Source: Bryoerythrophyllum caledonicum (taxonomy: Eukaryota; Streptophyta; Bryopsida; Pottiales; Pottiaceae). Taken from it: 64,000 bases of DNA. Below, piece after piece: positions 8,662-58,169 of this stretch. Numbering within the stretch: position 1 is the stretch's first letter; every line of letters begins with the position of its first letter. The stretch spans positions 18,697,406 through 18,761,405 of the forward strand of contig OZ020514.1 in the NCBI GenBank assembly GCA_963971425.1, in the 5' to 3' direction. Position numbers and translations under genes: made by a program. A model generated the notes under the pieces. That model was given only the letters and a program-made list of their open reading frames with translations. It was not told the origin of the DNA and searched no databases.

Positions 8662-10001
8662 AAGACCTTGTGGACAAGAAGACCGGCGTAGATATTGCCA
8701 AGTATGGGGCAACAATATGCTCGGACGGGTGGGACAATGTTACACATCGCCCTCTTATGAATATCATGCTCGTATGTCCAATGGGTGATATCTTCTTGGG
8801 GTCTATAGACACCACGGGTATGAAGAAATCTACGGCATATATAGGGGACCAATTGAAAAGTTTTATCCGTAAGGTTGGACCATTGAATGTGGTCCAAGTG
8901 TGCACCGATAATGCTTCAAACATGTTGGGGGCAATGAAGAAGGTCAACGATAAGTACCCGCACATATATACTCAAGGGTGTTGTGCACATATTTTGGACC
9001 TCCTCCTCGAGGACTGGGGGAAGGAAGGCATGTTTGCAGACCTCGTCCAGAAGGCGAAACATATTGCATTGTATATCCGGAACCATCATGTGCCCATGGC
9101 CCTATTTCGTCGATTTTCGCTAAAATTGTCTCTGTTGTGGCCAGCAGCAACAAGGTGTGCATGCAATTACATAATGATCCATCGTCTATTGGAAGTGAAG
9201 AATGCCCTGGAGATGGTTGTGATAGACCCAGCATGGATATCCTACGTATCCTCTCTTTTTGATAGGCAAAACGGGCACCGTGCCCATGCGAAGGCATCGC
9301 ATGTGCGAGCCACCGTTCTAGACGAGACTTTCTGGCATCGGTGCAGTAACTTTGAATTTGTAGTGGCACCAGTACTAAAGGCATTGCGGACTTTTGATGG
9401 TGACACTTCGGCAATGGGAATTGCTTGGATGACCATGAACAAGCTAAAAGAGCATGTGTTCAAGCTGCGCAATGTGCCATTCAACATGCTTGACGGAATT
9501 GCAACTCGCTTTGAAGGATCATTCCTACGTTGGGAGATGATGACAACAAATCTCCATTATGCAGGGGCTTTATTGAATCCTTATCTAGCCAATAACTTGC
9601 AAATTCAAAACAATGGTGAGGCCAAAAGGGCCCTAAACAAGGTTGTTATGATGCTCTGTGGTCCACTCGGAGTGTCTTTTTCGGCAGTAATGCTCGAAAT
9701 CACGGAGTATGAAGAATTGCGAGGCCCATATTCACCGGAGGAAGCTGGGGAAATTGAAAACAACAACCTCTTGCCTCACCAATGGTGGAACCGCGTGGGC
9801 GGGCAATCATTGCCTATCATTGCGAAGCATATACTAGCACAAACCTGCTCGGCCTCATCATGTGAGCGTAATTGGAGCATGTATTCGTTCGTGCATAGTA
9901 AGAGCCGAAATCGCTTGGGAGTACAGAAAGCGGAAGATTTGGTTTACATCTACACGAATAGTCGATTGCTCCGAGAATGTGCTCGTCCAGACCCAATTTG
10001 A
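8658..10001 (+). CDS. hAT transposase, catalytic core and dimerisation domain
   Basis: A 447-codon frame continuing the transposase. It has a DUF659-type start with CSDGWDN (first catalytic Asp region), CTDNASN (second Asp), the QGCCAHILDLLLEDW signature of the hAT insertion domain, and near the C-terminus the hAT dimerisation block from HQWWNRVGG through SSCERNWS to NRLGVQKAEDLVYIYTN, which supplies the catalytic Glu. It has no ATG at its beginning; it is the same gene as 8044-8661, thrown out of frame at the A9 run. It ends at TGA 9999-10001, beyond which the same frame stays open. The core residues are all visible. Confidence 0.9.
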   Translation: MKDLVDKKTGVDIAKYGATICSDGWDNVTHRPLMNIMLVCPMGDIFLGSIDTTGMKKSTAYIGDQLKSFIRKVGPLNVVQVCTDNASNMLGAMKKVNDKYPHIYTQGCCAHILDLLLEDWGKEGMFADLVQKAKHIALYIRNHHVPMALFRRFSLKLSLLWPAATRCACNYIMIHRLLEVKNALEMVVIDPAWISYVSSLFDRQNGHRAHAKASHVRATVLDETFWHRCSNFEFVVAPVLKALRTFDGDTSAMGIAWMTMNKLKEHVFKLRNVPFNMLDGIATRFEGSFLRWEMMTTNLHYAGALLNPYLANNLQIQNNGEAKRALNKVVMMLCGPLGVSFSAVMLEITEYEELRGPYSPEEAGEIENNNLLPHQWWNRVGGQSLPIIAKHILAQTCSASSCERNWSMYSFVHSKSRNRLGVQKAEDLVYIYTNSRLLRECARPDPI

Positions 10002-20545: not shown

Positions 20546-20881
20546 TGTGGGAATCTGTTCCCACAAGGTTCCGGATGTTAACCTAAAAATCCGGCACAAA
20601 CAAAAAAAAATTAGTGTTAGAACGTTAGAATCATAAGTTTGAACTATAGAATAGGCAAATAAGAAATAAGACAACCTAGGGGTACCAATGATCCTTAAAA
20701 CCGTTTAGGAATTACCATAAATCCAAGGGATTTGGAACCAGAGAGACCGCTCACGTCCGGAACCTGCCGGAAGCATCCGGAACCGGAAGTAAACCGGAAC
20801 CGGAGAGAATCCGGATTCAGAATGGATCCGGAGCCGGAAACGCTATTATAACCGTAACGGCCGTCCGTACACCGCAGAAGG

Positions 20882-20889
20882 TATTTAAG
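20882..20889 (+). promoter_or_regulatory. TATA-like box of unit C1
   Basis: TATTTAAG, about 165 bases before the gene start. Unit C3 has a similar TTAAAAGAG about 190 bases before its own start. Confidence 0.4.
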
Positions 20890-21051
20890 CCAGAAGTTAG
20901 GGTTCACTCCCCACACTTCTTGGCTTACTCTTTTTCCTTTGCCCGTGCATTGTAATCCCCCTAGAACGGAAGTGTTTCCATTAGAGAGAGTGTGTGGCGA
21001 GGTCAGTGCGTGCAGGTGATACCGGAGAGACTGTGAGGAATCTCTGCAGAA

Positions 21052-23040
21052 ATGGCGGAAGGAGAACCTTCCCGGACTACTCGTGGTACGACGACGCAAC
21101 CGGCGGTTCAACGGGTGGTCCCGATCATATCGACAGACCCGGAGGAGAAAGCCGTCCTCGAACACTACCTCACCAACATGGGCTGCCGAGGGCTTCTCGA
21201 CGTAGCGTGGGGCGTGAAGGATCCGAAACTGGTGGCGGAACTGCTCGGGACACCGGACAATCAGTACGATGGCACAATCCGAGCTCACCCCGAAACCTGG
21301 GGTATTCCGGAGTGGCAGCGTACCTACTCCTTCAGCAGCGGAACCGTCAAGACAGCGGAGCGGTGCGAAGACATACTTGGGGACGAATTCACAAGGCAAG
21401 CCGACCCCAAAGAAGGCTACAGCACCGACGACCTCCGGCATCAAGACGCGCAAATTGTGGTAAGATTCTTGAACCCGATCTTTCACCCGGAGAAACCTAA
21501 ACGGGTGGTGTCTAAATGGGCCACCACCATATTAGGTTCGATGAGAGAGAAATTTAGTGTAGACTGGGCCTCGCTTATGAGCGAGATGATCAACCGGATG
21601 GTTAAGGGGCTCCAGAAGTCGAAGAGGGCCGGCACCCCTCTCCCCTCGTACCTCACTCACCTCTATGCGCAACACGATGTGCTTACCCCGGACGAGCAAG
21701 ACGCATACGAGCTGCTGCTGGAGATCCAGAACTATGGAGGTCCAGAACCAGGAGACGATAACGAGGAACCGGAGGACGTGGAGACTTCCTTGCCCGAGAC
21801 AGTTCCCCAAAACCGGAAGCGGAGCAGATCTGTACCGCGGGAGTCGACACCGGGGCCATCTACATCAATTCAGCCAACGGATGAGCAACCTCCGCAAGGC
21901 CCCAGGTCCGCACCACGTGAAGGTCGCATTCCTCCGGCGGAGCCCCCGCACCTTGTTGGACTCGACGGGCCCGATCTACTGGAGCTCATCCAGCATGCAG
22001 GATGGCGTGCGGCGATCGTGTGCCAATCCGAAGCGCGATTACGAGAAGTCTTGGACGGCATCAGGAGGGAGTTGGAGGTAGAGAGGGTCGTGGACATACC
22101 GACAGCGATCCAAGAACTACAGAAGAACACACTCCGACTCCAAGCCTTAGAGATCCAGCAGGCTGCCATCATCCGGAGTCGAGACAACTTTGCTGCGACG
22201 TGCGACGAAACGTTTGCGGCGTTGACGGAGTCCCGAAAGAAGCTGAAGGAAGCGGAAGAACGAGCAGACGCTTCCGCACAGGCTTTGACAGAGGTACGCG
22301 TCGCGTTAGCCTTTCCGGTTGACACGGTCAACCGGAGTCTTCTCTTCACAGATCAGCTGGAGAAGGAAGGAAGGCTGAACCGGATCCAGATCATACGGTT
22401 CTTGCACGACCACGGCAAGAAGATGGAGAAGACATGGACTCGAATGCAGGAACTGGTGGCCAACCTACCCACTCAGGGACCGGAGAACCGAAGCACTCAA
22501 GCACCGGAGGACATTGCAGTTCGAGTCCGTATCCGGACATCTCCGGATGAATCCGGAACCCCAAGCGTACACCCGGAGGTCTCTGGGAAGCAGGCGGATA
22601 TCCCAACTCCGGCGGAGCCTGCTGCACCCATGACCGGCAGTCCTTCCAGCAACCCAAGCCCCGGTGCTGGAAAGCACTGGACGGAGTTATTACCGGAGGT
22701 AAGTCAGGGTGCAACCCCTTCTCCCCTCCGGCCTGCACCTACTCCTCCCTCATCAGGTCGCCGGAAGTCTACTCCACCACTCGCTAGGTGTTTGGCGACG
22801 GATCCTCTTAGTCCCGGAGCCGAATTCCAAGGCTTTGCTGAAGCTCTGGAGACCATTGTGGTGGATTCCACCTCCGAACCCCCTCCACCGGCAGCATCCC
22901 AGCCTCCAACTTCCGGAGCCGGATCACAAGACCTTCCGGCATCTTCTACTCCCCAGCGAAGGAGGGCCGGCAAGGCGAAGGCAGAGGCATCTACGAGACG
23001 TACCAGTCCAAGATTCAAGAATGTTAGATCACCCTCTTAG
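21052..23040 (+). CDS. Unit C protein, 662 residues, unknown function
   Basis: An intact frame beginning at ATG 21052 (MAEGEPSRTTRG). Residues about 30-230 form a compact, Trp-rich globular region (NMGCRGLLDVAWG, ADPKEGYSTDDL, FLNPIFHPEKPKR). Residues 235-310 are acidic and Pro-rich, 310-470 are helical and coiled-coil-like with a conserved core (FPVDTVNRSLLFTDQLEKEG), and 480-662 are Pro/Ser-rich ending basic (ASTRRTSPRFKN). A homologue is split by element A at 60157-60776 and 39368-40726. No enzyme motif, transmembrane segment or zinc finger is seen. The layout (globular head, acidic linker, coiled coil) resembles ORF-X of element A, but I see no reliable alignment between the two. Function unknown. 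Confidence 0.75.
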   Translation: MAEGEPSRTTRGTTTQPAVQRVVPIISTDPEEKAVLEHYLTNMGCRGLLDVAWGVKDPKLVAELLGTPDNQYDGTIRAHPETWGIPEWQRTYSFSSGTVKTAERCEDILGDEFTRQADPKEGYSTDDLRHQDAQIVVRFLNPIFHPEKPKRVVSKWATTILGSMREKFSVDWASLMSEMINRMVKGLQKSKRAGTPLPSYLTHLYAQHDVLTPDEQDAYELLLEIQNYGGPEPGDDNEEPEDVETSLPETVPQNRKRSRSVPRESTPGPSTSIQPTDEQPPQGPRSAPREGRIPPAEPPHLVGLDGPDLLELIQHAGWRAAIVCQSEARLREVLDGIRRELEVERVVDIPTAIQELQKNTLRLQALEIQQAAIIRSRDNFAATCDETFAALTESRKKLKEAEERADASAQALTEVRVALAFPVDTVNRSLLFTDQLEKEGRLNRIQIIRFLHDHGKKMEKTWTRMQELVANLPTQGPENRSTQAPEDIAVRVRIRTSPDESGTPSVHPEVSGKQADIPTPAEPAAPMTGSPSSNPSPGAGKHWTELLPEVSQGATPSPLRPAPTPPSSGRRKSTPPLARCLATDPLSPGAEFQGFAEALETIVVDSTSEPPPPAASQPPTSGAGSQDLPASSTPQRRRAGKAKAEASTRRTSPRFKNVRSPS

Positions 23041-24354
23041 ATAGGTTAGATTTAGGAGTAGTAGTAGCTTAGGGATCAGAATTAGGTAGCGATTAACGAT
23101 GGGGCCCAGAGTTGCACCCGGCTACTCAATCCGGAAACTAAGCCTTCCGGAAACTTAGGACCTTTCCGGAATTTTGCGTACTTTTCGGATGTCCGGAAAC
23201 CGGACCCGGGAAAATAGGATCTGAGATTCTCTTTTCCGGATTTTTCGGGATAAGATCCTCCGGATTTCTTGCAGATAGGATAAGCCTTAATTTAGGAACT
23301 ATTCTTGTACTTAGTAGATGGGTTTGAAAAACTCAGGACCTTGTTTTCTTTTCCTCTACGTTGAATATATTTCAGAGCTTTTCTAGAATTGCTACCTAGT
23401 ATTTGTGAAGAGAGTATTTTACGTGTGAGGTTCAAGGTCCGTTGCGGTACAAAAGTTTTGTGTAAGTTTCTTCAAAGAGAAGGATGTGTTGTTGTGCTAA
23501 GGAGTGAATCGGTTTGGATATTCAGTAGGGGAGTGTCCGGAACAACTGAAGGAGGTTGCAGAGGTGTTCCTGGTCACCTTCAGAGTCCGGAAGAACCAGG
23601 AGGGGAAGAGATATATTGCAGAGGCGTTCCTGGTAGTCTCTAGGGCACGGAACAGTCCGTGTGAACCCGAATTCCGGTCCAGAACCGGAGTTTACCCCCA
23701 CGATAGGAAAAACCTACTATGTGATTCTAGAAGGAGTCCTTCCAAGTAGAACTCTATCCGTATCCTTGTAGAGCTACAAAACTGCTACCGGAACGTCGTT
23801 GTAGTCCGGCCGTACCTTTGTGTGACCACATCCGAAAGGCCTTCCAGATGTCGTGAGAGTTACGTCTAGGACCAACACCCTATCACAGGTTAGTAGATTA
23901 GAGGAAGAGTGATTGTCCGGTCACTATAAACTTCGAGGCAGTGGGTGTCTAGCCACTTAAAGTCACAAGGCAGTGGGGAATCCGGCCACTTACACAAAAT
24001 AGGATCACTGGTCTTCCGGTCACTTGTTTAAACCTTCCGGAATCCACTCTGAGGGGAAACAGAGGTAAAACAAACTACCCCCCCACGTTCCCGGAAATCC
24101 TTTCCGGAAATAACTATGAAACCTTCCGGAATCTAGATCCGGAAAGTTTTTGCTTGGGTCTTGGAATCCGGAAAGATCCGGATCATCCCTGACTAGATTG
24201 ACTAACCTAGGTGATGAATAAACTAGTGATTTTGGGGTTAATTTGAAAGGATAACTAGATCTCTCTGGGAACAAAACCAGAGCGGTTTACTTTGGAAGCA
24301 ATTAGTGACGATTAAGTGCCTTCCGGAGGAATACTAACTCTGCAAACTACGACA
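23041..24354 (+). other. 3' noncoding part of unit C1
   Basis: 1.3 kb without a gene, dense in CCGGA words (seven within about 145 bases near 23120-23270). It is matched in reverse orientation by 38060-39360 (C3) and, for its last 510 bases, by 28970-29479 (C2). Two short related segments (about 23525-23600 and 23600-23650) repeat a GGAGG...AGAGG...TTCCTGGT pattern. Confidence 0.7.
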
Positions 24355-35932: not shown

Positions 35933-38059
35933 CTAAGTCCGCCCACAAATCATACGAGAGCCCGTCACCACACTTTTTGCAGTGAGAGGAGGTGGTCTAA
36001 GCTTCGGAATGGGAATCTGTGGCCCTTCCCACTGTTCACTGAGTGGAGGAGCATGGTTCCAAGGCCTAGAATTTCCTTGGGTGGACCTAGAGGTTGCCCG
36101 TTGAGTGTTTTCTATTGCCTCTCTCGTGGTCTCATTTAAGTGAGAGAAATGTGGTGAATCCTCATCAGAGCTATCACTATCCTCTGGTATAGGTGGAGGA
36201 GGGCTAGAATATTTAGGATCACGACGATTGGCCCTTGTTTGCACTGCTAGAGCAGGCAGCACACAATGTTGCTCCTCACGAGATGAACTAACCTCGTGGA
36301 AAACCACATTGAGCTCCGTGAGAGTGGGGGATTGTTCAGATACAACCTCACTTGAGACTGTAGCAAAACGGACGTCTTGTGGTCCTTGGTTTTGTTGTCC
36401 ACCTTGAGGTGGTCCTTGGTTTAGAGGAATGTAACCACCCTTGGTGTTCACTCCCATTGGAGGGTTTTGATTCTGGCGGTTGTTATTGTAATCGTAATAG
36501 AGGCTAGGGGGTCTAAGTGTGTTATCAAAGGCAGGATTACGGGCCCCCTTCAAGTGATCTTGGGCTTGCTATTGGTAATTCCCTGGCGGAAAGGTCATGG
36601 GAATTACCTTATCCGGCCTACGGCATACATGGGTAGGGTGATTGCCGCCACAATTTCCACATACTACACCACTCTCTATCCAACACTGCCCAATTGCATG
36701 TCTACGCCCACAAACGCTGTGAATCTCGTGACGTGGTTTTTGTTGGCCTGCGAAACCTGGACTAGGGGACACATAACCTTGTTGACCCTAGTTAGGCCCT
36801 ACTTGCGGTGGGTTCCTATGAGGAGGCACATATGGCTGCTGACTAGGGTGGTGTTGTTGTGCAGATGCTCCCATGGTGCAAAATGGACTAGTATGGCCAT
36901 GTTGGCCACATTGAGCGCACCAAGGTCCTGAATCATGTTTACCAGACTCTATCGGTGGGGGTGGTTGGTTAGGATTTTGGTTCCTAATCAACATAGCCAT
37001 TTGATCTTGCATGGCTTTAATTTGTTGGACCAACTGATTTTGGAACCCTTGTTGACCTTGGAGGACCTCATTCCTAAAATCATCCTTCCACGTGGTTCCT
37101 TCAACTGGATAAGTGATTTGAGAGAGAGGGGCGGGCGCTCTAGCATTCAAGGGTGGAGCATAAGAATTCCACATGGGGACAGGCATACCTAAGGTGCCTT
37201 GAGCAGATTCATGGGCTATCTCTTTTCCCTTAGCGTGAATAGGTATGAAACTAGGAATGTGGTGCTCTTCCTTCCTCCACAACCTCTCATGATCTCTATC
37301 AATCCGCTCTATCAGCCTAGCTTGATCTTTAGCGACCGCTAAAGAAGCGGGGCGTGCCCTAAGGATTTCTCGAATGGTAGTCTCATTGTTAAACCCTTGG
37401 ATAAAGAATTGAGTCAAGGTATCGTCGGTGAGGAGGTTGCCTACAAATCTAGTGACCACTAGCTCAAACCGGCGAATGTACGTGGTAATATCTTCACCTT
37501 GTCCCTGGCGCAAGGCTGCTAAGGCAGTGAGGGCATTACTTTGCCCTACTTTGGGCCTAAAGTTCTCCAAAACGCCCTCATAAGACTATCTCAGCTGTCA
37601 AAGGTGTTAGGAGGATGGTTTCTATACCATTCGTAGGCGGCATCCTTCAATGTGCAAGAGAACCAAACTAAGTAGTAGCCCGGGTCAGTGATAAGGCAAG
37701 TGGTGAGGAGCTCCAAGAACCGCTCTACATGAGCAGATGGGTCTTCATCCTTGGTTCCTTTTAAGATAGGCAAATTTGGGGGCATAGGAGCTGCCTGCAA
37801 CCCAATGGGTACTACGATGGGCAAACCCCTTGGTTGAACCAAGGGATTGATAGGAATGGCATCCGGAGGAGGTGGCCCTCCAAAATCCATAGTGGAAGGT
37901 GGTGGAGTGCCCTCACGTCGAGTAGCACCCACGAAATATTTAGGATCTAGAGAAAAAATAGGCAATAAAAGTCTAGGTGAGAGAAGAGGGATAGGTTGGG
38001 CTTCTAGATGTACTTCTAAGAATCCCTCGGAGATATCCACCGTATTGTCACTAGTATTC
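35933..38059 (-). pseudogene. gag: Element B gag, main part
   Basis: From the C3 junction the frame reads NTVDISEGFLEVHLEA through a gag capsid region (FSCTLKDAAYEWYRNHPP, near 37650), shifts frame at about 37580, and continues (TLTQFFIQGFNNETTIREIL). A zinc knuckle WCAQCGQHGHTSPFC lies near 36910 and a second CCHC-like motif (VCGNCGGNHPTHVC) near 36640. In-frame stops occur near 36787 and 36567, and another at 35933 before the protease. The N-terminal codons are on the far side of the C3 insertion (61335-61419). It is a Gypsy-type gag, clearly inactive. Confidence 0.8.
38055..38059. repeat. Target site duplication of unit C3, left
   Basis: TATTC, identical to 61335-61339. Confidence 0.85.
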
Positions 38060-39367
38060 TGTCGTAGTTTGTAGAGTCAATATTTCTCCGGAATGCACTC
38101 AATCGTCACCAAGTACTTCCATAGTAAACCACTCCGGTTTCGTTCCCACAGAGATCTATTTATCCTTTCAAATTATCCAAAACCTTTAAGCTATCGATCA
38201 CCTAGGTTAGTTATTCTATTCCGTAAAGGAACCGGATCCTTAAACCGTAAACCAGTTTCCGGAACTTATCCAGAATGTACCGGAACTAGTTTCCGGAAGT
38301 TATGTATAGTTGTTTCCGAAAATGATTTCCGGCAGACTAGGTGGGTAGTTTGATTTACCTCGGTTCCCCCCCTAGAGCAACTTCTGGAAGGTTTAAGCAA
38401 GTGACCCGAAGGCCACTGATCCTATTTTGTGTAAGTGGTCGGATTCCCCACTGCCTTGTGACTTTAAGTGGCTAGACACCCGCTGCCCCGGATTTTATAG
38501 TGCACGGACAATCACTCTCCTCCTAAACTACTAACCGGTGAGGTGGTGTTGATTCTAGACTTAACTCTCACGACATCCAGAAGGCCTTCCGGATGCGGTC
38601 ACACAAAGGTAAGTCCGGACTACAACGACGTTCCGGTAGCACTTTCGTAGCACTCTGAAGATAGTGATATTGTTTTACTTGGGAGGAGTCCTTCTAGACT
38701 CACATAGCAGGTTTTTCCTATCGTGGGGGTAAGCTCCGGTTTTGGGACTGGAATCTTGGTTCACACGGGATATTCCGTGATCTAGAGACTACCAGGAACA
38801 CCTCTGCTATATATCTCTTCCCCTCCTGGTTCTCCTGGAACGCCTCTGCAATCTCCTCCAGTTATTCCGGACACTCCCCTGCTGGAAATCCAAACCGGCT
38901 CACTCCTTAGTACATCAAAACATCTTTCTCTTCACAGAAACGTACGTAATACGTACTACAGCAACGGACCTTGTACCTTACAAAAGAACATCATATGTCG
39001 CACAAACTAGGTAGCAAATCTAGTGATAGCTCCGGAATATATTCAAACATAAGGAAAAATAAGATCCTGAGTTGAGAAAACTCATTATACTAAGTACTAG
39101 GAAATCAACCTGATCCCCGCACTACCTTATCTGCGAGAAATCCGGAAAAACTAACCTAGAAAATCTTATCCCTAAAGGTCTGGGATTTCAAACCTGAGAT
39201 CCGAAAATTTTGGATCTTTGATCCGATTTTTCGGCCGGCCACAATTCTAAGTTTTCAGTTTTGACAGACAGGTCGGTAGCCGGGTGCAATCTGGAGCCCA
39301 ATTGTTAACCGCTACTACAAGTCTGAGGACCGGTAAAACAAATCTTCTAACAACACTAATAATCTAA
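38060..39367 (-). other. 3' noncoding part of unit C3
   Basis: Reverse-orientation match to 23041-24354, rich in CCGGA and TCCGGAA. No gene. Confidence 0.7.
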
Positions 39368-40726
39368 CTACGGAGTCTTCTTGTTCCGTCCACTCCGGCG
39401 CATCGGCGATGCTTCCACGGTCTGCTTCGTGCCACCTACCTTGTTCGGAGTTGGATCCGGTACTAGTCCACTTCCGGAAGCTGGAGCTTCCGGCTCCGGT
39501 TGGTCGGTTGAAGTTGCCGCCTACGTGCCCTTCTCTGGTGTACCGGTGGTAGTCCCCTCTGCTGTCTTGGGGCTGGCGGCAGCATCCAGATAGCCTCGGG
39601 ACAGGGGAGAAGTAGTCTTACGGCGACCGGAGGTAGGTGGAGAGAGATGAATCCAGAAGCCAGGAGACGGCTCCTGGAACAGTGCTGAAGGAAGAGGGGT
39701 CTTCCTGGACGTCATTGGACTGTTGGGAGGGGCCCGGCTCTGTGGTCTGGGAGGATTTGTTTCCGGTGTTGCCACCGGCTCCTCCATAGGTTCTTTACCC
39801 TTCCCGCAGGGTTCCGGTGCCTGCTGTAAAGGTCCGGTCGCCTCCGAGGAAGATGTAAGGTCGATGGTAGGGTTGGGTGCCGCCGGCTTCTCTGAAATGA
39901 CGGAACTGGCTGCGTTGTTTGCCAGTAGTTGCATCTCTCCCCATGCCTTCTCCATCTTCCGGCCGTGGTCAAGAAGAAAATGGATGATCTGGCCCCGGTT
40001 CACCTCACCTTCCTTCTCCAAATACTCGGTGAAGAGAATGCTCCGGTTGACAGTGTCAACCGGAAAACTCAGAGTTGTCCGTACCTCACCTAGGGCTTGA
40101 GCGGAGGCAACCGCTTTGTCTTCCGTTGTCTTCCGGAGTACTTGGGCCTCCTCCAGGGCTGCGTCCGCCTTTGCCAGTTCCTGCTGCATTTTCGCCCGGG
40201 CTTGAAGAAGGGTTCAATGCTGTGCTTCCATCTGCTCGAGCCGGAAATCGCTCTCCCCTAGGGTCTTCAATCGAGGCAGGATCTCCTCCGAATTCTCAAT
40301 CCGGAGCTCCCCCATGACGGTGTATATTAGGGCGGTGCTGTCATTCAGGTGTTGGTTGATCCGGGTGGCTCTCCATGCGACATGTTGGAGTAGCTCCATG
40401 ATGTCCTCCTTGTTACTTCCGATGAGTGTTGGAAGATCCGGAGTTGGACATCGCCCTGGCCGCTTCGAAGGCCCCGCTCCAGCATCATCTTCAGCTTCCG
40501 GAGTGTGGTCTAGACGGGTGGGTGGGGAACGCGCCGGTGGGGATTTCGGCTGTGCCGAGCGACTCCTCTTCCACGGCTGGGGTGCTTGCGCCGGAGCGGT
40601 CTCCGTGTCTTCATCCTCCTCCTCCTTATCATCAGCCTCAACCCCTCCGTACCTTTGAATGGTGAGCAGGGTCTATTACTCGTCATGCTCTTCCGGTTTA
40701 AGTAACTCGTGCCGGTGGTAGAGGTG
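39368..40726 (-). pseudogene. Unit C protein in C3, C-terminal two thirds
   Basis: Continues the frame from 60157 after element A. It reads YHRHELLKPEEHDE, then two adjacent stops (TAA TAG, in the place of EQ-type codons in C1), then QRYGGVE, an acidic and Pro-rich linker, the helical region (MELLQHVAWRATRINQHL), a TGA near 40215, the coiled coil with the conserved FPVDTVNRSILFTEYLEKEG, a TAG near 39522, and a basic end RRSGRNKKTP before the TAG at 39368. No frameshift was seen. Every stop can be explained by a C-to-T change. Dead copy of the C1 gene. Confidence 0.75.
40722..40726. repeat. Target site duplication of element A, left
   Basis: AGGTG, identical to 60157-60161. Confidence 0.9.
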
Positions 40727-42713
40727 TGTAGCGATGGTTTTCACCACTCTAAGAAAACACCCAAGTGTACCCACACCTCATAGGATTCGTTACGGGGATG
40801 ATCATACGCCTAGTTTTAAGTATTTGGAGATTAATTGTGTCGTTAAAGCTATCTTTTTAGTTAATTCTTAAGGTTATCTATCTATTTTTAGGGAATTAGG
40901 GCGGTTAGCATCACTCTTAAGGGATCCACCCACAAAGTCTAATCCCAAAGGATCTCTCGTGCCTTAAGACGGAACATTAGTCCTTCTAAGATTGTGCTTA
41001 TGCCACTAATCCTTAAACACTTGCCACACTGGGCTAATGGAAGTTTCCATTAAGTCTCATTGCATTGGTTCTTTTAATTACAATCTTTAAGAATTCAAAT
41101 TCTTACCTCATGCAAAATTGCTCCACTTTTCACGTCCGTCCACTAAATCCACGTAATCACGTTCTTAAGACAAGGATTAGTCTCAAAAATCACATACACA
41201 AGTTAACTTAAGTCTTAAGGAATTTCAGCTCTTAAGTCTCCACTTAAGTTCACCTTTCCACAATTATCCCTTAAAGACCACGGTGTTCCACACTTACTCG
41301 TACCACTTAGTCTTTAAGATGTCTGAATTTTACTTAAGACTTCGCTCTTAGTTGACTCCATGTTCTTAAGAACACAGTTTCTGTCCTTGAGTTCTTAAAC
41401 ACTCACTTACTCAATCGGGACTGATTCTTAAGAACCTGTACTGTCTAGACCAATTCAGCCCTACAGTGTTCTTAAGTTTCTGTCTTAAGACTTCCAGAAT
41501 CGGGAATGCATCTCACTGAATGCAAATGATGTCCCATATTCTCACTCATACGGATCTTAAGTCCCAGCCCTTAAACTTAAGGGTCTACTGGTACTTAAGA
41601 TCTCAATCTTCATAAGCTTATGTATCCAAACTTGGACTTAAGATTCTTAAGTTTCTATGTTCTGTTCTTAAGTCTTTCTTTGGGATTTATTCCTTATTTT
41701 CTCTCTTATGCTAGATTCTTTTAAATACTCACAACTTAGCCTACCTTAGAGAATCCATTCTATTAAGGTTAGACTTAATGCCAATTTTTTGTATGCATAA
41801 TATGACACTCTTGCCATGCATCAAGGTATGCCACTCTTGATGTTTATTGCATCAAATTGCATTAACATGAATAAGAACTCCATTCTTATTCTTATGATAC
41901 TCAAGTTATGCTCACTCACACTCGAGATCTTATTAAGTACTTATGCATCACACATCTCATGTACTAAGTCACTTAATTTCACATTATCTCCATTAATCTT
42001 CACACTCATGATTAATGCTCCAACACACACACAAGGTCACACACACGACCTTAGTAGTTAGGGTATTTCCCTAACTTATTTCATGAAGAATAAATATACC
42101 ATGCATTCATGCATAGGAATTTTATCCACAATTAATACCTAATGCATGCACTTGTATTTACAACACACAATGTCAAATTTATGCAATGAAGTTCACATAA
42201 TATTGCAATTATACATATAACTCAAGTCACAAGACTCTACATATGCAAATTCAATAACAATTATATATTCATATATAAAATTAAATACTCTTACAACATT
42301 AAGAGTCATCAACTAGCTCTTTCACCTAAAGCTAGGGCTCACTCCAACCTTCCTTCAAGGAATTTCTATGGTAATGGCCAAGAATGCTAAAAATTCAAGC
42401 TAGTCATTCTACTCAACATCCAAGAGGCACACCTCTTGGCAAGAGGTTTTTCCTATCATTAACCATTAAGATTAATTCCACTAAATCTTCACATCTCTTC
42501 ATATCTATTCATGAAAAGGTACAACCTATCCAAAGGGTGCGAGTCCAACCCTTTTCCCATTATTTCCTTATTCTTGGATATGAATAGGTACTTTCCACCT
42601 AATTATCTACTTAGTGTAAACTTAATCATTAATTTTTTAATTCTCCATATATCTACAACCCTTTTTACACTTAATTTTTGGAAAAAAGCTAATTTTGTCA
42701 TTTTGGCTCTACA
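40727..42713 (-). mobile_element. Element A 3' LTR (left copy)
   Basis: Starts TGTAGCGATGG and ends CTCTACA in plus orientation. It differs from the other LTR at 41793 (A/G), 42679 (T/C) and 42710 (T/G). About 19 copies of the palindrome CTTAAG lie between 40865 and 41670. Small frames inside are identical in both LTRs and have no coding character. Confidence 0.95.
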
Positions 42714-42728
42714 TAGCCCTCCTCTTAG
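42714..42728 (-). promoter_or_regulatory. Polypurine tract of element A
   Basis: On the minus strand CTAAGAGGAGGGCTA directly precedes the 3' LTR start TGTAGAG. This is the plus-strand primer position. A2 has a similar tract before its LTR. Confidence 0.75.
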
Positions 42729-43014
42729 CTTGGAGACGTCCTCGTCGACTTCAACGACCTTGGTCCTTGAACTTGATCTTTTGCACTCCATCTTCCTTTC
42801 AATCATTTTTCTCGTAGTCTCTTTATGCTCCATGTAGCATTTTTTCTTTCTTGTCTTTCTCCTTTAAGAATTGTTGATATTCTCCATTTGCTTTCCATTG
42901 TTCTCTTCTTTAATAAGTATGTCTTATACATACTTGGCTTCAAGTTTCTCCTTTTAACTTAACTCTTTTAGTTAAGTCTTCCACTTTTATACTTCCATAA
43001 TTTTTTCATAATAA

Positions 43015-43040
43015 TTTTTTTTTTTTTTTTTTTTTTTTTT
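43015..43040. repeat. Poly(T) run of 26
   Basis: Twenty-six consecutive T on the plus strand (poly(A) on the coding strand of element A). Confidence 0.95.
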
Positions 43041-43160
43041 AGCTTCGAATTTTCCATTCTCTTTTAAATCTTCATTTTTATTTTTTATTGCTTTTCAAAT
43101 TTTCCTCTTCCAATTTAATTTTTTCTTCCATATCTTCCTCTATACTTCACTTACAATCAT

Positions 43161-43208
43161 TTTTTATTTTATTTTATTTTATTTTATTATTATTATTATT
43201 TTATTTTC
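43161..43208. repeat. TTTTA / ATT microsatellite
   Basis: TTTTA repeated about five times, running into ATT repeats. Confidence 0.9.
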
Positions 43209-43476
43209 TTTTTACTTCATTCACCATTTTTTCAAATTTAGAAAATTAGCACTCATTAGTCCTCACATCTCTTGATTAGCAAATTAATAGTGCATCTAAT
43301 TACTAATTCTAGATTACTAATTTTCTTTTCACTCTTCTATTTCTATTTTTTCTAACTTGTGTGAGCTATCCTATCATACAATTTAAGTAGTGTGTTATTA
43401 CTTCACTACTAATCGTGTTATCTACATCACTCACATTGTTTTACTTTCATAGCCTCTTTGCTTTATCTCTCAATAT

Positions 43477-43616
43477 TATCATGTTCTTTCTTATTTTTCC
43501 CTTCCATGATACTCTCTCCTTATAGTTATCATGTTCTCTCCCTCTTATTTTTTCCTTTCATGATAATCTCTCATTATAGTTATCATGTTCTCTCCCTCTT
43601 ATTTTTTCCTTTCATC
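43477..43616. repeat. About 54-bp tandem repeat, 2.6 copies
   Basis: Units starting TATCATGTTCT at 43477, 43527 and 43581. The second and third are nearly identical; the first is four bases shorter. Confidence 0.85.
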
Positions 43617-45085
43617 TATATGCATTTTTTTTAATTTTTTTTTTTTAAATTTTTTTTTAAAAAAAAACTATTTTATTTTTTATTATTTTATTTTATTTTT
43701 TATTTTTACAAATTCAATTGAATTTGCTCTTCCCTTAAGATACTATCCCTCCACATATTCTTAAAACTCTCACTACATCAAAGTCTTAAGATTTTTGTTT
43801 TATCCAAAGTGTAACTGACTTTGGTTTTATTCTTAAGGAGACTGACTCATAACAGGTTTTTTAAGAACTGACTTACTTAAGGAAAATAAGGATTAACCTA
43901 TTTGTTCTTTTCCTTTAAGGAACTATATCTCTCTTACTCGTCTGATTCTTAATGTTCTAGTCTGCTCAAGGTTGTACCTTAAACTCTCACTTCTCTTAAG
44001 GTCACGGGAAGAAATGATCTCACTCAAAACAGTGTGTTTAAAGAATCTTACAAACTTATACTTGAAAGAGATCTTCGCTAAAAACTTGAACTTGAGGAGT
44101 GGTACTTTAAAGGATAAACTTACTACATACTTTTTAAGTAGGAAAATTATCTGTTCTTTCAGCCTATTCGTTTCTTCCCGAACTGGTTCTTAAGTACGTA
44201 CAGACAGAGCTCTGTCTGTATTGACAGGTTCCATATTTTGCCGCAAGTCTCAATCTCTTTAAAATCCGTTTTTCCTTCCAATTTTCTTCCCTAAGTTCCT
44301 CGTACCGCTTTGCTCATGACTTGTGCTTCATTGTGCTTCACATTATGAAAATTTGGTGTACTTATATCTCTGGATAATCGAAACAATAAGTGGAATTTTT
44401 ACTTTCCAGCCATAGCAGGTTCAGCATTTGTCCCATATCGTTTGGTGAGGCTCCTCTGGCTCACGATATATAGGCTGACGAACCTCCAACCCACATCTAG
44501 CAGGCCTTGGTGGTCTGGTTGACGTGTGACGCGGGTATATACTGTCGTGGCAACCTCCGGGTGCTAGTGCCGGGTATGTACCATCATACGCGGCCTACCC
44601 CACCACGCTTGACTAGGGTGTTGACTTCTGTAGTTACAGGCAGTTCAACAATTTTTATTATTTTTTTTTCACTTTACTGCACAGTGTTTCTTTCTTTGTG
44701 TGTACACTTCCAAGTCACCGAACCTCTTTTCAGCATACTTCCACTCTTATGTTTTTTGTAGTAATCTCATAGTTGTTCGTCATTCTCCAACAGTTACTCA
44801 TTTTAATTAGTTGTTGACTTCATTTTGTCGTGTTCATAATCTTATGACACCGTCTCATACAGCTAATATCATTCATATTTCCAGAAGTAGATTGCAACTT
44901 TACAATGCTTTGTTCAGTCTTTCAACATCAGCTATCAGCTCATTATCATGGCTTCCATAACAAGCCATATTCTGAGTCTTGAAGCTGCAAACGCCTAAGC
45001 TTTAATTGCCACCTCAAAATCACAAAATTCCATCTTAGTCCTTACATTGTCTGCACATAGCTCCTCCTAAAAACCTTATGTCTAC

Positions 45086-46264
45086 TTAAGATCTTGGTCT
45101 GGCTTCGAGTCGAGGGCGCTTGTGCTTGTATGCATCCTTGAACTCACACTCCTGGAGAATCAGCTGTAGCTCAGCCATCTCCACATTACGACGAACATCT
45201 TCGTCATGCTTAAAAAGATACGTCTCGTGCGCCTTCTGATAACTCAGCCATGCAACTAGCTGCTCTTGACGCTTGCTTGAATTCTCCAAAGCAAACACCG
45301 AGCTCGCACCATGGAGGAAGTTGGTGATTACCATACACTCCAAAGCTCTCATATGGCGACTTGGCATCTGCTGCATCTTCGTCCATAAGTGAAATTCAGG
45401 CTTGGTCTCATCAAACCTGTTGACGTTCACCACACACTTGTATCGTATACACATGTGAGATAGGATGTTGCAAAATACTGCAGCTCGAAAACACACAGGG
45501 TCCGTGTGTCTTCGGTGAATCTCAAAAAAGGCTCGATAGGAATCACTGCATTCCTGGGGAGAAGAAAAACTCCCTGGAATCTGTGGCCAGTTGTAAGGCA
45601 CTGTGTCGAGCTTACTCCAGGGCGCCCACTTGTAACGCCGATATCCCTTCAAGGGACACTGGTGGTAGCTCATCGTGATCGCTGCTGGTGGCACCGTTGA
45701 CCAAGTCTGGGATACCTTGGGATATAGTTGATCCCACTGTCTCCAGACCTGCGGTGACAAGCCAAAGTCCTCCAACAGCCAATCTATGGCTTGCCATGAG
45801 GGAAATGGCACCTCCTCCTCGCTGTTAAACAGATTCTCGTACTCTCCGAGAAATCGTTGCTTGTTCAACGATCCGGTCACTGGTAGTGGCAAGCCTCCCC
45901 AGATCGTGTGTCTATAATCTGGAGGGGGTGACATGAAAGTGGCCATCTGAACCGCATCTGCCACATCCACCGTTTTCTTCTTTGCTCCCTCGATCGCACG
46001 CTTAAGTCGGTGGTGAGCTCGGACCTTGGCGTAGAGATACTGCCCCATGGTGATCTCACCTCGCTGAGCCAAGTCCTCGCGCTCCTGGACTTGAGTCATG
46101 CATCCCACAAAGCTCTGCTCATTTTGTAATAGCTTCGTCAGCTTCTCCATCTGGTTCTTCCATTCTCCCAGGTAGTCCGAGGAGAGGGGAATGGTCTTAA
46201 GATCAACCTCAGGAATGACTACCATTCGTTGAGCTACATCTGGTTGATCATACTGCCTCCGCAT
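45086..46264 (-). CDS. ORF-X of element A, C-terminal part (392 codons after the TAG)
   Basis: Begins directly after the TAG at 46265-46267 in the same frame as the larger part. The A2 copy reads through the matching place without a stop (LELQIERKRQLDH against LEGQL-stop-MRRQYDQ), so this is the end of one long protein rather than a separate gene. Conserved blocks shared with A2 are a WLLEDFGLS segment, PYNWPQIPGSFSSPQEC and TDPVCFRAAVFCNILSHMC; the last is Cys-rich and probably structural. The end is basic (KHKRPRLEARPRS). No catalytic motif or membrane segment is seen. Function unknown. Confidence 0.7.
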   Translation of the reverse strand: MRRQYDQPDVAQRMVVIPEVDLKTIPLSSDYLGEWKNQMEKLTKLLQNEQSFVGCMTQVQEREDLAQRGEITMGQYLYAKVRAHHRLKRAIEGAKKKTVDVADAVQMATFMSPPPDYRHTIWGGLPLPVTGSLNKQRFLGEYENLFNSEEEVPFPSWQAIDWLLEDFGLSPQVWRQWDQLYPKVSQTWSTVPPAAITMSYHQCPLKGYRRYKWAPWSKLDTVPYNWPQIPGSFSSPQECSDSYRAFFEIHRRHTDPVCFRAAVFCNILSHMCIRYKCVVNVNRFDETKPEFHLWTKMQQMPSRHMRALECMVITNFLHGASSVFALENSSKRQEQLVAWLSYQKAHETYLFKHDEDVRRNVEMAELQLILQECEFKDAYKHKRPRLEARPRS

Positions 46265-48442
46265 CTACAGCTGCCCCTCCAAGTGCCAGTAATATAGTAG
46301 CACTCTGGCTCCAATATCACCGATCGGTACCAGCAGCTGTCTCGAGTCCTCCAGCTGAAGGTCTTGTCTCACGATCATTTCGCAGATTAGATTCTGCATA
46401 TTGGCAAAATTCGCCGCTACGGTCCACAGGTTCTGAAATTCTCCTCGGCTCAGCTTGTCTCCATGATTCAAACACATCATGGTTAAACAAGCGGTCCTTT
46501 GCAACTCATAGGCTCGGAAGAGTGCAAAGGTTGGCGGACTGTGTAAGTCCTGGCGCCAAATGGCCTCTTGGAGTTTGCCCTTCACTCCTCTATCTACTGT
46601 TGTCTGTGAAGTCAACCGGGCATTAGCCTCGGTGACCTCCCGTACCTTCTCTTCCAATTCTGCTACCTGCAAAGAGTCGGGCGTAGCTACGGTCGACGTT
46701 TCCCTGCTTGCCTGCACCTCCCTCTTCTGTTGTGCTAGGGACGTCGCCAACTCCTTCGCCAGATTCTTCTCAGCCTGACACTGTTCCTGCACCTGCTGAT
46801 ATTGAGTCTTCAGATTCTCAATCTCGAGCAAGTATTCTTCAACTTGTCGCTCCTTCGCAGTGTCGAGATCCTTCCAGTGGGTAGCGCTCCCGGAAGCTTG
46901 CCGGAGCTCTTCTTGCAACGTGTGCCAATCTCGCACCTGTGCTTCCTTGTCTCCAGCTAGAGCCGAATTCTCCTTCTCCGACTCCGCCTTGAGGCGATGG
47001 TACTCCTGCTCCATGTGGCTCAGCTTCTTCTGCAACTCCTCGCATTGCTGTGCCTTCGTCGTCTGATCGTTGCACAAGGTCTCCCAGCGCTGAACTTCTT
47101 CAGTTGTTTGGGCTAACTTCCCTCGCAGTTCACCTCGCTCTCGGTCCAGCAGCTCTCTAGCCCGCTCAGCTTCCAACAGCGACTTCTCCAGCCGAAGCTT
47201 CTCGCGTTGGAAGTCCTTCTGCATTTGATCCTTGGCCAACAAGACATCCTTGTTGGTGGCTTGATATTGAGCTACGAGATCATCCTTTTGGATCACCATC
47301 AGCTCGAGTTTCTCCTTACTCAGCTCACGAACCTCACTCCGTTTGGTGCCATCGGCTTCCTGCGATTTCTTCTCTGTTCGCTTGATAGGCACTTCATCCT
47401 CAGGGTCCTCTACGTCGATGACGTTAGGAGCAGCGTACGGGACAATCTGCTTGGATGGTGTCTTGGGCGGCTTCGCTGTTCCTGGTGTACGCGGTTCCTG
47501 CCCTGAGGTGATCCTTAAAACACCTCCAGTGCCGATCGGGTGCTTCACCTTTTTCTTCTGCACCTCCACCAACGGTGTCTTCCCCTTGTCTTTCGCTCGT
47601 ACAGGGGCTTGAGGTGACCCTGGTGTCTCCTCTTCCTCGTCCTCCCTCGCAGGACTTGGCACGTCGTTATCTCCCAAGTCCTCTTCTTCTTCAGAAGCTT
47701 CTTCCGGTTCGTCCTCTTCCTCTTCCGGTTCTTCGACCATCTTGCGCAATCTCTTCTTCCTGGGACTCCTCCCTGATTCTTCTTCCACCTGTTGCGCTCC
47801 TCCAGTCAAGCTCTTCCTCAATGGGGGACAGATTGCTGAGAAGTATGTGGTTCCATGGAAGATGTTATGGCGGGTATTCTTCCCTGCCAGCTCCAATCGG
47901 AGATGCGCGTACATGATCTTGGACCAGTTGAGTCGCTCTCCATTCCAGCTCTTGTAAGCTGCGGCCAACGCGCTGGGCGATAATACCTCCGTTCCATCAA
48001 AAGCCATCAAAAGTCGAAGGTTGATAAATTTCAACCACTCCTTCCACGAAGCCTTGGCCTTCCTGATTGAATATCCCCGTCCTACCTTGGCGTCATCTGG
48101 CCTCTCGAATACCCGACTGAGCTCAGTCTTGGTTAGCAAAGGCAATCCCACCAGCGTAGGTCCTGTCTTCGGCAAGCTTGGACAATGCTGCTGGACGATC
48201 TCCACGTCGAAGCGAACCACTTCACCGTTGATTAAAAATTCGTCTTGCGCGCCTCGCTTGGAGCCCAGCATGAAGGCCAGCACTCGCGGTAGATCCGCCT
48301 CCGGCCATTGTTGCTCGATGAATTGCAGGAGACCTGCCTTTTCCAAGTTCTTGCGGTTGCCCTCATACACCTTCTTTGGCAACTCCCTGAGCGGTGAAGG
48401 ATCAATCTCAAAATCCTTCTTCGGCTTCCATTTCTGGCTCAT
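46265..48442 (-). CDS. ORF-X of element A, N-terminal part (to the internal TAG)
   Basis: I prefer the ATG at 48442 (MSQKWKPKKDFE), because the A2 copy aligns from here; the frame stays open upstream to 48550. Relative to this start, residues about 1-210 form a helical, Trp-containing domain (LLQFIEQQWPEADLPRVLAF, RLNWSKIMYAHLRLEL). An acidic stretch follows (about 230-280, almost all Glu/Asp), then a Pro/Lys-rich linker, a long coiled coil (about 370-620), and a helical block (PPTFALFRAYELQRTACL) up to the TAG. It lies downstream of pol, where some plant Gypsy elements carry an extra gene. The N-terminal domain is reminiscent of plant-transposon accessory proteins; this is unproven. Not an envelope: no signal peptide or membrane span is seen. 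Confidence 0.75.
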   Translation of the reverse strand: MSQKWKPKKDFEIDPSPLRELPKKVYEGNRKNLEKAGLLQFIEQQWPEADLPRVLAFMLGSKRGAQDEFLINGEVVRFDVEIVQQHCPSLPKTGPTLVGLPLLTKTELSRVFERPDDAKVGRGYSIRKAKASWKEWLKFINLRLLMAFDGTEVLSPSALAAAYKSWNGERLNWSKIMYAHLRLELAGKNTRHNIFHGTTYFSAICPPLRKSLTGGAQQVEEESGRSPRKKRLRKMVEEPEEEEDEPEEASEEEEDLGDNDVPSPAREDEEEETPGSPQAPVRAKDKGKTPLVEVQKKKVKHPIGTGGVLRITSGQEPRTPGTAKPPKTPSKQIVPYAAPNVIDVEDPEDEVPIKRTEKKSQEADGTKRSEVRELSKEKLELMVIQKDDLVAQYQATNKDVLLAKDQMQKDFQREKLRLEKSLLEAERARELLDRERGELRGKLAQTTEEVQRWETLCNDQTTKAQQCEELQKKLSHMEQEYHRLKAESEKENSALAGDKEAQVRDWHTLQEELRQASGSATHWKDLDTAKERQVEEYLLEIENLKTQYQQVQEQCQAEKNLAKELATSLAQQKREVQASRETSTVATPDSLQVAELEEKVREVTEANARLTSQTTVDRGVKGKLQEAIWRQDLHSPPTFALFRAYELQRTACLTMMCLNHGDKLSRGEFQNLWTVAANFANMQNLICEMIVRQDLQLEDSRQLLVPIGDIGARVLLYYWHLEGQL

Positions 48443-48550
48443 CTTGATCTCTGAGTCAACTGTTCTCTTACAACCAACGCCACTCTGTGAATTTGGATTC
48501 ACCATCTTGCACCTGTCTTTAACAACAAAGCAAAGCTCTTTTTCCTGCAA

Positions 48551-49923
48551 TGTCTACTTCGTTTTTGCAATCTTCTTTACGCTACGAACACTCTTAAGAC
48601 ATGCACCTACACTCATAGAATTCCCTATCATCTGTGCAGACTTATGTCTTAAGATTACATGCAAGGTGGTTACAACGGTTATTCCGTTTCTTGATTTTCT
48701 TTAACAAACTCTTTGATTTTACTCTCGTAGATAGTTATCTACTCTCAGTAAATTTTATTTCGTTAATCTCATACCTTAGCAAGGAAGATCAGTTGAATTC
48801 TGTTGTCTTAAGCAACCTTATTCACAACGACATGGCATAATCCAACAATTCTGTGAACTCACATTCAGCATGACTTAAACGACGAACTTACCACCAGAAC
48901 GTGTGACGACCTCTGCCTTCGCTCTTGGTGACACCTCGCTTCCCCGACGCAGAGTCTCACAAAACTCACAGCTTTGCAACAATTCTTCACGATACACTCT
49001 GACTCTCAATAATGCAAACTAACCTCTCGACTCTGCTTCAGCGACTGAACAATGCACTTGTGAATTCTCTCTGATGAGCCATAGCCAAGTTTGGTAGCTC
49101 GTTTTCTTAACGGCTCATCAAGTTTGCCACTTGGTTTTAAGTCTTGCCCCCACTCGTCCTTATCATCACGTTATTCAAGTCATTGCAATGATCTTTTTGA
49201 CGTGATTGATTGTTGTTTCCCTCGGGTGAAATGCCCACTTTTGTCCCTTCCATGTCACTTTAGTTGATCTTTCGTCATGATGAGATTTCTCCATTTTATG
49301 ACAAGGTCGCTTCTCACAGATTTCCTACCAACTTAATCATCATTTTTATTTTCTTAACTATTTCCATTTTTCATAATTTGCATCGTCTTACTTCTGTTTT
49401 AAGGCATCTCCTTATTTAAGTTTATTGTTGTCTCACAATTTTACTTTTTAAGATGAACTCCAGGGACAACCCCAGACTTACTGTCTTAAGGTGTCTACTC
49501 AAGTTCTTAAGACAACTGTAGATCTGACGTCTCTTGAGTGCTTGAAGACAGCTTAAGTTCTTTAAGACAACTGTGTCTTTAAGAGCACTTAAGTTCTTAA
49601 GACAACTGACATGACATCACACTTATGATCTTACTTTTGTGACTTAACTTGAGATGACTTCTTAAGTACTGTTCCTTTATGCAAAAATGATTTAGCTTTT
49701 AAGATTTTTGATTTTTTCAATAATACCTTATGACAAGGTTTCTCTCAAGAAAGTTTTTTGTGCATGTTTTTGTGAATGTTCACAAATTAACTATGACTTA
49801 AAACACAATATTTTTAACTTTCCCTTTGGTAGTTTAGGGTCGTTCCGGACCACTCAAAAACTTTTTCTTAAGATTACCCTTAAGTAGGGGTGTAGCCCCC
49901 CTCTTTTAAAAGGTAACTTGCCC
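48551..49923 (-). other. Element A spacer between pol and ORF-X
   Basis: 1.37 kb, no gene. CTTAAG words are dense near 49480-49700. A2 has a spacer at the same place (15532-17087). Confidence 0.7.
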
Positions 49924-52900
49924 TCAAGTTACATACTTTTTGAGCCTGTATCCATTATAGCGTGTTGCATGTACATTACCTGCAAAATCTTGTAATTCGA
50001 CGGAGCCATTAGGATAAGATTTAAGTATTTTATATGGTCCAAACCATCTCATTTTAAATTTCCCTGGAAATTTCTGGAATCTACTATCATAGAGTAGGAC
50101 TAAATCATTTTCTTTTAGAGTTTTTGGTTGTAATTTACTATCATAATAAGTTTTCCTTTGTTTTTGTATAGCTTCCATATTCATGTAGGCTTGACCTCTA
50201 ATTTCATCTAGACGTTCCAGATTATCTAATCTTTCTCTTAAAGATTGTTCATCATCTAATCTTTCAGAAATTGCCACACGTAAGGAAGGTAATGCCACTT
50301 CTATTGGGAGCATAGCTTCCAATCCATACACTAATTGAAAAGGGGTTGCTTTAGTTGTAGTTTTTATTGTACATCTATATGCCCATAATGCATTATTCAA
50401 CTCATAATCCCAATTAGATGCATTGCCTTGTAATGTCTTAGTGATGATCTTGCAAAGAATACCATTAGACTTCTCAGTTTGTCCATTAGCTCTAGGGTGA
50501 TAGGGTGACGACTTACGGTGCTTAATAAAATACTTTTGCAACATTTTCTCAATAGTGTCATTGATGAAATGAGTCCCTTTATCACTTACAATTTCTTTTG
50601 GACACCCAAACCTAGTGATAATATGTTCATAAATGAATTTTGCAACAGTGTCTGCATCATCATTTTTAGTGGCAAGGGCCTCTACCCACTTAGTCACATA
50701 TTCTGTTGCAACCAAGATATAGCGTTTTTGACCCTCACGACTAGGTGGTTTAATGGGGCCTACAAAGTCAATTCCCCATTTCTCAAAAGGAATTTGTGCT
50801 AAAATTGGTGTTAATGGCATAGCCTTAGTAGCTGTCGGTTTACCGACTCGCTGACAAGGATCACATTTTTTAACATAATTAGTGGCGTCGGCAAAAAGTG
50901 TGGGCCACCAATAGCCTGCTCGTAATGCTTTTTGAGCGGTAGCCCAACCCGCAAAATGCCCTCCACAGACATCATCATGACATCCTACTAAAATCATTGA
51001 CACTTCACTAGGATTTACACATCGTCGAAGTACATCATCTTTACCTCGCTTATAGAGAACACCACTAATCATAGTGTATGGTAACGATTGATGCACTAGT
51101 TTAATTTTATCTTTGCTAGTGTATTCAATAGGAAAAGTAGCTTTAGTTAAATAGTAGATGATGTCGGCATATTCTTTTGGAATTACATCAAGTACCTCCA
51201 CACCCTCCTTAACAGAAAAGATGTGTGCATCTGGAAAGTTATCATCTATGGACTGTGGATTTATGGTCTCACTAAGTCTTGATAAAAAATCTGCATTTTG
51301 ATGTATTTTCCCCGGTCTGACATTTATGGTAAAATTAAACTCTTGTAATAACAAAACCCACCTCGCAATTCGTCCACTTAATTGAGGCTTATTGATCATA
51401 TACTTCAAAGCATCATGATCAATATGGAAAGTAAATTTGTAACCCAATAAATAATGTCTATATTTTTTAACAGAGAAGATCATGCCAAGACCTTCTCTTT
51501 CAGTCACAGAATAATTTCTTTCTGGGGCACTCAACTGTCTACTTGCAAAGTAAATTGGTCTATCATGACCTTTAGAATCTTTTTGACTTAAGACACTTCC
51601 AATGGCCATATTAGAAGCATCAACATACACTTCAAAAGGTTTTGTCCAATCTGGGGGAATTAGGACAGGTGCTTTACTAAGACGACGTTTTAACTTGTTA
51701 AAAGCTTTGGTGCAATCATCTGTCCATACCCCAGGTAATAAAGTTTGTTTTGTTAAGACATTCAAAGGTGCTGCTATGAAAGCAAACCTATAAATAAATC
51801 TTCTATAATAACCTGTTGCTCCTAGAAAGCCTTTTAGTCCTGTTAGATGTTTAGGTATTTCCATATTAAGAATAATGTCTACTTTGTCTGGGTCTACCGA
51901 TATTCCCTCTTTTGAAACAACATGACCTAATAATTTACCACATACAGTGGCAAACTCAGACTTAGCAGCATTTATGGAGATGCCATATTCTTTACATTGA
52001 TTAAAACATTTCTTTAGGTTTTGTGCATGATCTTTCTTAGAACCAAACACACAAAAATCATCTAAAAATATCTCCATAAATTTTCTAAGATATTTTGTAA
52101 AGGCTTGAGTCATAACTCTTTGGAATGTTGCCGGAGCATTGCACAATCCAAATGGCATGACATTATATGCAAAAGTTCCCCAGTCCGTAGTGAAAGTGGT
52201 CAATGGTTTATCTTCTGGGGCAATCTGCACTTGATTATAACCCGAGAATCCATCAAGGAAAGAATAACACTCATGACCGGCTACACCATCTAGGACTGCA
52301 TCCGAAAATGGTAATGGAAAGAAATCTTTCTTAGTGGCTTTGTTCAACTGTCTGAAATCCTGACAAATACGGATCTTACCATTCTTTTTAGGTACTATGA
52401 CAATAGGTGACACCCATTCGCTAAATGGCACGGGATAAATGAAATTACACTCCAGTAATTTATCAATTTCCTCTTTAACCATCAGAGAATACTTTGGGTT
52501 CATCCTATATTGCCTTTGCCTAACAGGTTTAGCATCCGCTTCTAGGATAATTCGATGTTGACAAACATCAGGAGGTATGCCTTTCAAGTCTTTATAAGTC
52601 CAAGCAAAGGCATCATTTTCCTTCTTAAAGAATTCCAACCATTCTTCATATTCTTTAGAACTTAATTCATCATATATTTTAATAGGCTTAGGATCTTCCG
52701 TAGTGCCTAAATTTATTTCTATAGTATTTTTTACTAAAGGTCGAACATTAGGAATTTTTTTATCACCTAGTAATTGATCCGAGTCTGACACATAAGGAAT
52801 TTCCTTATCTGACTTCCCCTCAATAGTAATATTAAAAATAGGAGCATTTTGCCATGCTTCAATAGCTGCATCCGAGTCATCAACTTGACTGGGAGGGACA

Positions 52901-55029: not shown

Positions 55030-55038
55030 ATTATGATC

Positions 55039-56502: not shown

Positions 56503-56560
56503 TAGTAATCCCCATAGGTTTTTTATTTTTATCCTTATTCTGAACTTAATTTTTAAATTT

Positions 56561-56845: not shown

Positions 56846-56893
56846 TTTGTCATTGGGGTACTTGTATGGTATTTCAAGGAATTATAAAGAATT

Positions 56894-57461: not shown

Positions 57462-57467
57462 TTTTTT

Positions 57468-58163: not shown

Positions 58164-58169
58164 AAAAAA

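Follow-up and report, generated by a model that had tools for sequence, protein, structure and literature searches.

A conserved 662-codon gene inside the long terminal repeat of a Ty3/gypsy-type retrotransposon, carried by solo LTRs

What kind of mobile DNA inserts in the manner of a retroelement, has no terminal repeat of its own and carries a long intact gene? The question is raised by unit C1, which lies in the 64,000-nucleotide stretch of DNA analysed here (the window). A sequence-only reading had listed its TG..CA ends, perfect GTCGA duplication, TATA-like box and intact 662-codon gene, and all of these are present: C1 starts with TGTGGGAATCTG and ends with CAAACTACGACA, and the gene, an ATG-to-stop frame, is the one large frame on its strand. 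The same reading saw no terminal direct repeat inside the unit, where a hidden one would contradict an LTR, and self-comparison of C1 agrees, giving just short weak matches of which none links both ends. From this it proposed that the parent retroelement keeps a gene in its LTR and that C1 is a solo LTR. We conclude that C1-type units are indeed LTRs of a Ty3/gypsy-type retrotransposon and that C1 is a solo LTR with a conserved gene inside. Features of the window are collected in Table 1; a run of 200 Ns at 7529–7728 is probably an assembly gap, and frames called across it are meaningless.

Table 1. C1, its relatives and associated features in the window.
Feature	Position	Strand	Basis
C1 solo LTR, 3809 bp, TGTGGGAA...CTACGACA	20546..24354	+	ends and duplication; genome copies
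Target-site duplication GTCGA, left of C1	20541..20545	n/a	sequence
Target-site duplication GTCGA, right of C1	24355..24359	n/a	sequence
5'-terminal palindrome of C1, TGTGGGAA-TCTG-TTCCCACA	20546..20565	+	sequence; genome pattern count
TATA-like box TATTTAA of C1 (putative promoter)	20882..20888	+	sequence only
Gene inside LTR, 662 codons: helical N domain, coiled coil, basic tail	21052..23040	+	frame, model, homologues, dN/dS
3' noncoding part of C1 with TCCGG/CCGGA array	23041..24354	+	motif count, C2 comparison
C2 solo LTR, 5' part; gene stop at codon 5	60157..61334	-	comparison with C1
C2 solo LTR, 3' part; four stops in gene	38060..40726	-	comparison with C1
C2 duplications, TATTC on + / GAATA on -	61335..61339 and 38055..38059	n/a	sequence
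Element A, Ty3/gypsy, nested in C2, outside the unit itself	40727..60156	-	LTRs, duplication CACCT, pol domains
C3, 3' fragment of third, diverged LTR, 69% to C1	28970..29480	-	comparison with C1
Unfilled site GTCTG of copy L011, in repeat common to L011's flanks	9037..9041	-	comparison with L011

The genome searched is assembled into 894 contigs (437 Mb). A search with C1 DNA gave 38 places at 92–100% identity, C1 included, with one at 70% (the best 38 of 3937 candidates). We surveyed C1 and 20 fetched copies, 21 units of 3761–3869 bp (L028 runs into Ns), among which L018, L019 and L020 have one duplication in common and were counted as one insertion. TG..CA ends with perfect 5-bp duplications, as expected of Ty3/gypsy LTRs, flank 17 of the 21 units, the frame of 662 codons is intact in nine, and a divergence of about 1% separates the most similar C1-type copies. 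For the 17-base 3' end CTCTRCAAACTACGACA the genome has 207 exact matches, and for the reversed control none; together with the 17 perfect duplications this indicates that the ends of C1 are not a product of chance. At the other end, the palindrome TGTGGGAA-NNNN-TTCCCACA has a loop that varies among families, and the pattern with any loop occurs at 444 genome sites (48 for a reversed control).

Copy L011 lies in a repeat with an uninterrupted relative in the window, and the join in that relative (Table 1) shows that the insertion brought both the unit and a second GTCTG; an uninterrupted relative of C2 (92%) adjoins L027. Both C1 and L011 are single units directly between one duplication, as solo LTRs are, with the unfilled site also available for L011. 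The repeat in question (7730–11516, 95% identical to the L011 flanks) contains a transposase-like gene pair at 8044–10001 that we take to be hAT-like by eye, the first frame of which has no Pfam match. A sister family is represented by L029, with 84.5% DNA identity, a unit of 3810 bp, the duplication AAAGG and an intact frame of 662 codons. When the genome was searched with the protein, 18 of the best 67 of 7623 candidates had no stop, one of these matches being partial. C-type LTRs are also found inserted within other C-type LTRs, at L022 and at G000:C8:6121023-6127468.

Such copies would also be produced by a free-standing transposon that has no terminal repeats and moves directly as one unit, with a gypsy-type integrase or Ginger-like transposase acting in trans; any pairs would then be neighbouring insertions. 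Each copy has its own duplication, and among the matches listed in the searches with C1, the protein and L029 all that are not fragments stand alone: no good copy has a second one in direct orientation within 30 kb in the best 38 of 3937 candidates (C1 DNA), the best 67 of 7623 (protein) or the best 38 of 3892 (L029), and the same-strand neighbours listed in the two DNA searches are pieces of copies that are nested or have been interrupted. The parts of PMC2836005 that describe Ginger DNA transposons give them TGTNR ends, short duplications, long inverted repeats and a transposase gene, and the C1-type ends fit TGTNR. The long repeats of Ginger elements are absent, however, as neither terminal inverted repeats of at least 40 bp nor an integrase-like transposase was found in the C1-type unit and gene.

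The pattern of 3' ends decided the matter. Among the 100 of the 207 ends that were listed, five have same-strand and three have opposite-strand neighbours under 20 kb away. One of the five same-strand pairs has the same variant base in both ends, and this is a paired element at G000:C1:1466292-1486247, on the minus strand, with two units in direct orientation 16 kb apart; in another (L037) no primer site follows the first unit, and a further one contains L016, which has its own duplication. In the paired element the last 451 bp of both LTRs are 99.6% identical (2 differences), and AGCAT precedes the first unit and trails the second as a single outer duplication. The first unit is followed by TGATTT-TGGCGCCGCTGCCAGGGA, which resembles a primer site, and the interior has matches above the Pfam cut-offs to Ty3_capsid (1.7e-9), Retrotrans_gag (2.6e-8) and zinc knuckles (3e-10). 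Some features of this copy tell against the LTR reading: it is damaged, with the 3' LTR lacking positions 1–1316 and the interior disturbed after the protease, for which Pfam gave no match in this element, although one stretch is 37% identical to the protease region of element A. The gene of the 5' LTR has no stops over residues 1–661, so that of the two gene copies per element anticipated by the sequence-only reading one is seen whole, while the copy in the 3' LTR is partial, from unit position 1317 on.

The pattern ACGACA-N6-TGGCGCCGNTGCC, which joins an LTR end to a sequence presumably complementary to a tRNA, occurs six times genome-wide and never in its reversed control. One of the six belongs to the paired element. 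At another, C1:61321800, the copy matches L029 at 96% over 391–3810, and we examined the 4 kb upstream of three more. At L041 the primer site is preceded by a distant relative of the gene (33% identity over residues 18–232 and 37.5% over 393–472), and the 6 kb that follow encode a reverse transcriptase (1.1e-19), an RNase H (2.7e-36) and an integrase zinc-binding domain (6.2e-8), with gag, zinc-knuckle and protease matches that fall below the Pfam cut-offs. The remaining two speak against the LTR reading, there being no gene on the right strand within 4 kb in either L042, where just the last 154 bp of the LTR are left, or L040, which has no C1-like LTR end. The rarity of complete elements is a further point on that side, with six junctions as against 207 exact 3' ends, two patterns that cover different sets and give no exact ratio.

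The paired element, and the gene relative before the L041 primer site with pol after it, together identify the unit as an LTR with the gene inside. The order is LTR, 6-base spacer, the primer-site-like TGGCGCCGNTGCC, gag, protease, reverse transcriptase, RNase H and start of integrase, pieced together from two elements of which one has the closing, truncated LTR of a direct pair within one outer duplication. The direct-orientation pair around a primer site and gag that had been predicted is seen in the paired element, with pol after the L041 junction. As just 2 of the 100 listed 3' ends bear a primer-site junction, single copies dominate and far outnumber pairs; the paired form nonetheless exists, and the copies are not all single. 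The pair is young, with 2 differences in 451 bp, and the closest C1-type copies are about 1% apart, so that fast loss of pairs through recombination between 3.8-kb repeats would be a sufficient explanation for their scarcity. The free-standing transposon was dropped when the 3'-end pattern led to the paired element; with one outer duplication, near-identical LTR ends and a primer site and gag inside the pair, and with six LTR–primer-site junctions genome-wide, we regard it as very improbable.

Is the gene in the LTR maintained? Between C1 and L029, dN is 0.109 and dS 0.538 (NG86), a dN/dS of about 0.2, and by region dN ranges from 0.059 in the N domain, its lowest value, up to 0.184 in the tail, its highest. 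Variants common to at least two of 19 copies comprise 31 replacement and 32 silent changes, where 0.656 to 0.301 is expected, and the private variants of these copies (126 replacement, 78 silent, 10 stops) are nearer to neutral. These substitution patterns indicate purifying selection on the LTR gene. Its protein has no Pfam match, and none of the 13 members of protein set A1 matches a capsid or gag family, even with E values up to 1 allowed; 12 metagenome homologues with 37–48% identity were found on contigs of 1.6–5.8 kb (7991 candidates scored). In the predicted structure the N domain is helical (pTM 0.83 when modelled by itself); there is also a coiled coil, and the remainder is disordered.

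The noncoding parts of the LTR have features of their own. The first 500 bp of C1 contain 17 copies of TCCGG/CCGGA (1.4 expected) and the last 1314 bp contain 39 (3.3 expected); no such enrichment was seen in four other stretches of the window. In nine noncoding C-type pieces from several families there are 12–34 motifs per kb, as against 0–1.1 in three control stretches, although for two of these pieces the highest count among 200 shuffles equalled the observed number. The last noncoding kilobase is about 79% identical between C1 (23307–24354) and C2 (38060–39097), and is thus more alike than the silent positions of the gene, where third codon positions differ at 61–63%. Such a pattern is compatible with signals that the RNA or the end of the LTR requires, or with sequence exchange among families.

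If transcription starts just after the TATA-like box, the genomic RNA of a complete element would open with this gene as its first frame, upstream of gag, and a position within the R or U5 part would let reverse transcription copy it into both LTRs. Recombination between the two 3.8-kb LTRs would then leave solo LTRs that retain promoter and gene. The protein may in turn influence the LTRs themselves, perhaps as a regulator or anti-silencing factor that binds the TCCGG/CCGGA motifs, which is the weaker part of the scheme. We consider this explanation as a whole, from a Ty3/gypsy LTR gene and a solo C1 to the proposed steps of transcription and regulation, to be highly probable.

What the protein does for the element is less certain, and we favour a self-acting DNA-binding regulator, even though the motif array runs through the gene too (35 motifs, 8 expected). 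It might instead have a structural or packaging role, as a partner that shares its RNA with Gag, and a predicted helical domain followed by a coiled coil, in what would be the first frame ahead of gag, is in keeping with that. Such a role is possible, if on the unlikely side, given that the element has its own Gag, that the proteins match no capsid or gag family and that the motif array would be left unexplained. The lack of a known family and the stops in many copies might also suggest a captured host gene, a passenger without function for the element. Such a passenger should not show a dN/dS of about 0.2 between families or the excess of silent changes among the common variants, nor would it be expected to have a relative of 33% identity in the same place within the distant L041 element, and we give this alternative very little credence. 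Returning to the DNA-binding regulator, a bolder version of it is that the lineage moved both a selected regulatory gene and a dense array of motifs bound by its protein into the LTR, and that solo LTRs in large numbers keep a few complete elements active in trans. We put this forward as rather doubtful; were it true, each solo LTR would be a self-contained promoter, gene and target.

Other units in the window add to this picture. The sequence-only reading had taken 38060–61334 as a second complete unit repeating all features of C1; this unit, C2, is real, with a TATTC duplication, ends closely similar to those of C1 and, element A removed, a net length of 3840 bp (3809 bp in C1), but its gene is broken by five stops. 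The LTRs of element A (40727–42713 and 58170–60156) are 99.85% identical. Behind its pol lie two extra frames on the same strand, of 746 and 392 codons, with no Pfam match above cut-off, and the 746-aa frame is related to a 537-aa frame at 17541–19154 (24% identity, E 3e-25). To judge from these related frames, a second gypsy lineage in the window carries its own unfamiliar gene. A repeat present at 29480–31011 and 62971–64000 (97% identical over 887 bp) adjoins the C3 fragment at 29480.

Solo LTRs are usually regarded as regulatory debris. Those described here can retain an intact, once-selected protein gene, and the usual disarming step leaves the gene in place. They offer a clear case for asking how an LTR gene stays selected and whether solo copies aid complete ones in trans, and for asking whether coevolution of a motif array with an element-encoded protein has occurred outside DNA transposons. 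For annotation there is a warning, as the LTR gene may pass for a large unfamiliar family of host genes.

In its TG..CA ends, 5-bp duplications, primer-site-like sequence, gag, protease, reverse transcriptase, RNase H and integrase domain the element is like Ty3/gypsy LTR retrotransposons; unlike the others, element A included, it has an LTR that holds a conserved gene of 662 codons. No earlier conserved gene inside a Ty3/gypsy LTR was found in a search of open-licence papers. The superantigen gene of mouse mammary tumour virus reaches into the LTR and is hence duplicated in the integrated element, a precedent for a gene in an LTR, although virus and protein are unrelated to the C1-type element. 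The Ty3/gypsy-like rice elements Retrosat2, RIRE3 and RIRE8 have LTRs longer than 3 kb, and an additional frame precedes their gag-pol; the passages of PMC3485330 concerned describe this ORF0 as upstream of ORF1, without placing it inside the LTR, whereas the C1-type gene is within it. In VANDAL DNA transposons, according to the sections of PMC5735166 that treat them, the VANC anti-silencing proteins bind a short motif that is densely repeated within the encoding element, chiefly in its noncoding parts. The C1-type LTR likewise has a dense motif, although VANDAL is a DNA transposon with another motif and the likeness on the C1 side is one of motif density alone.
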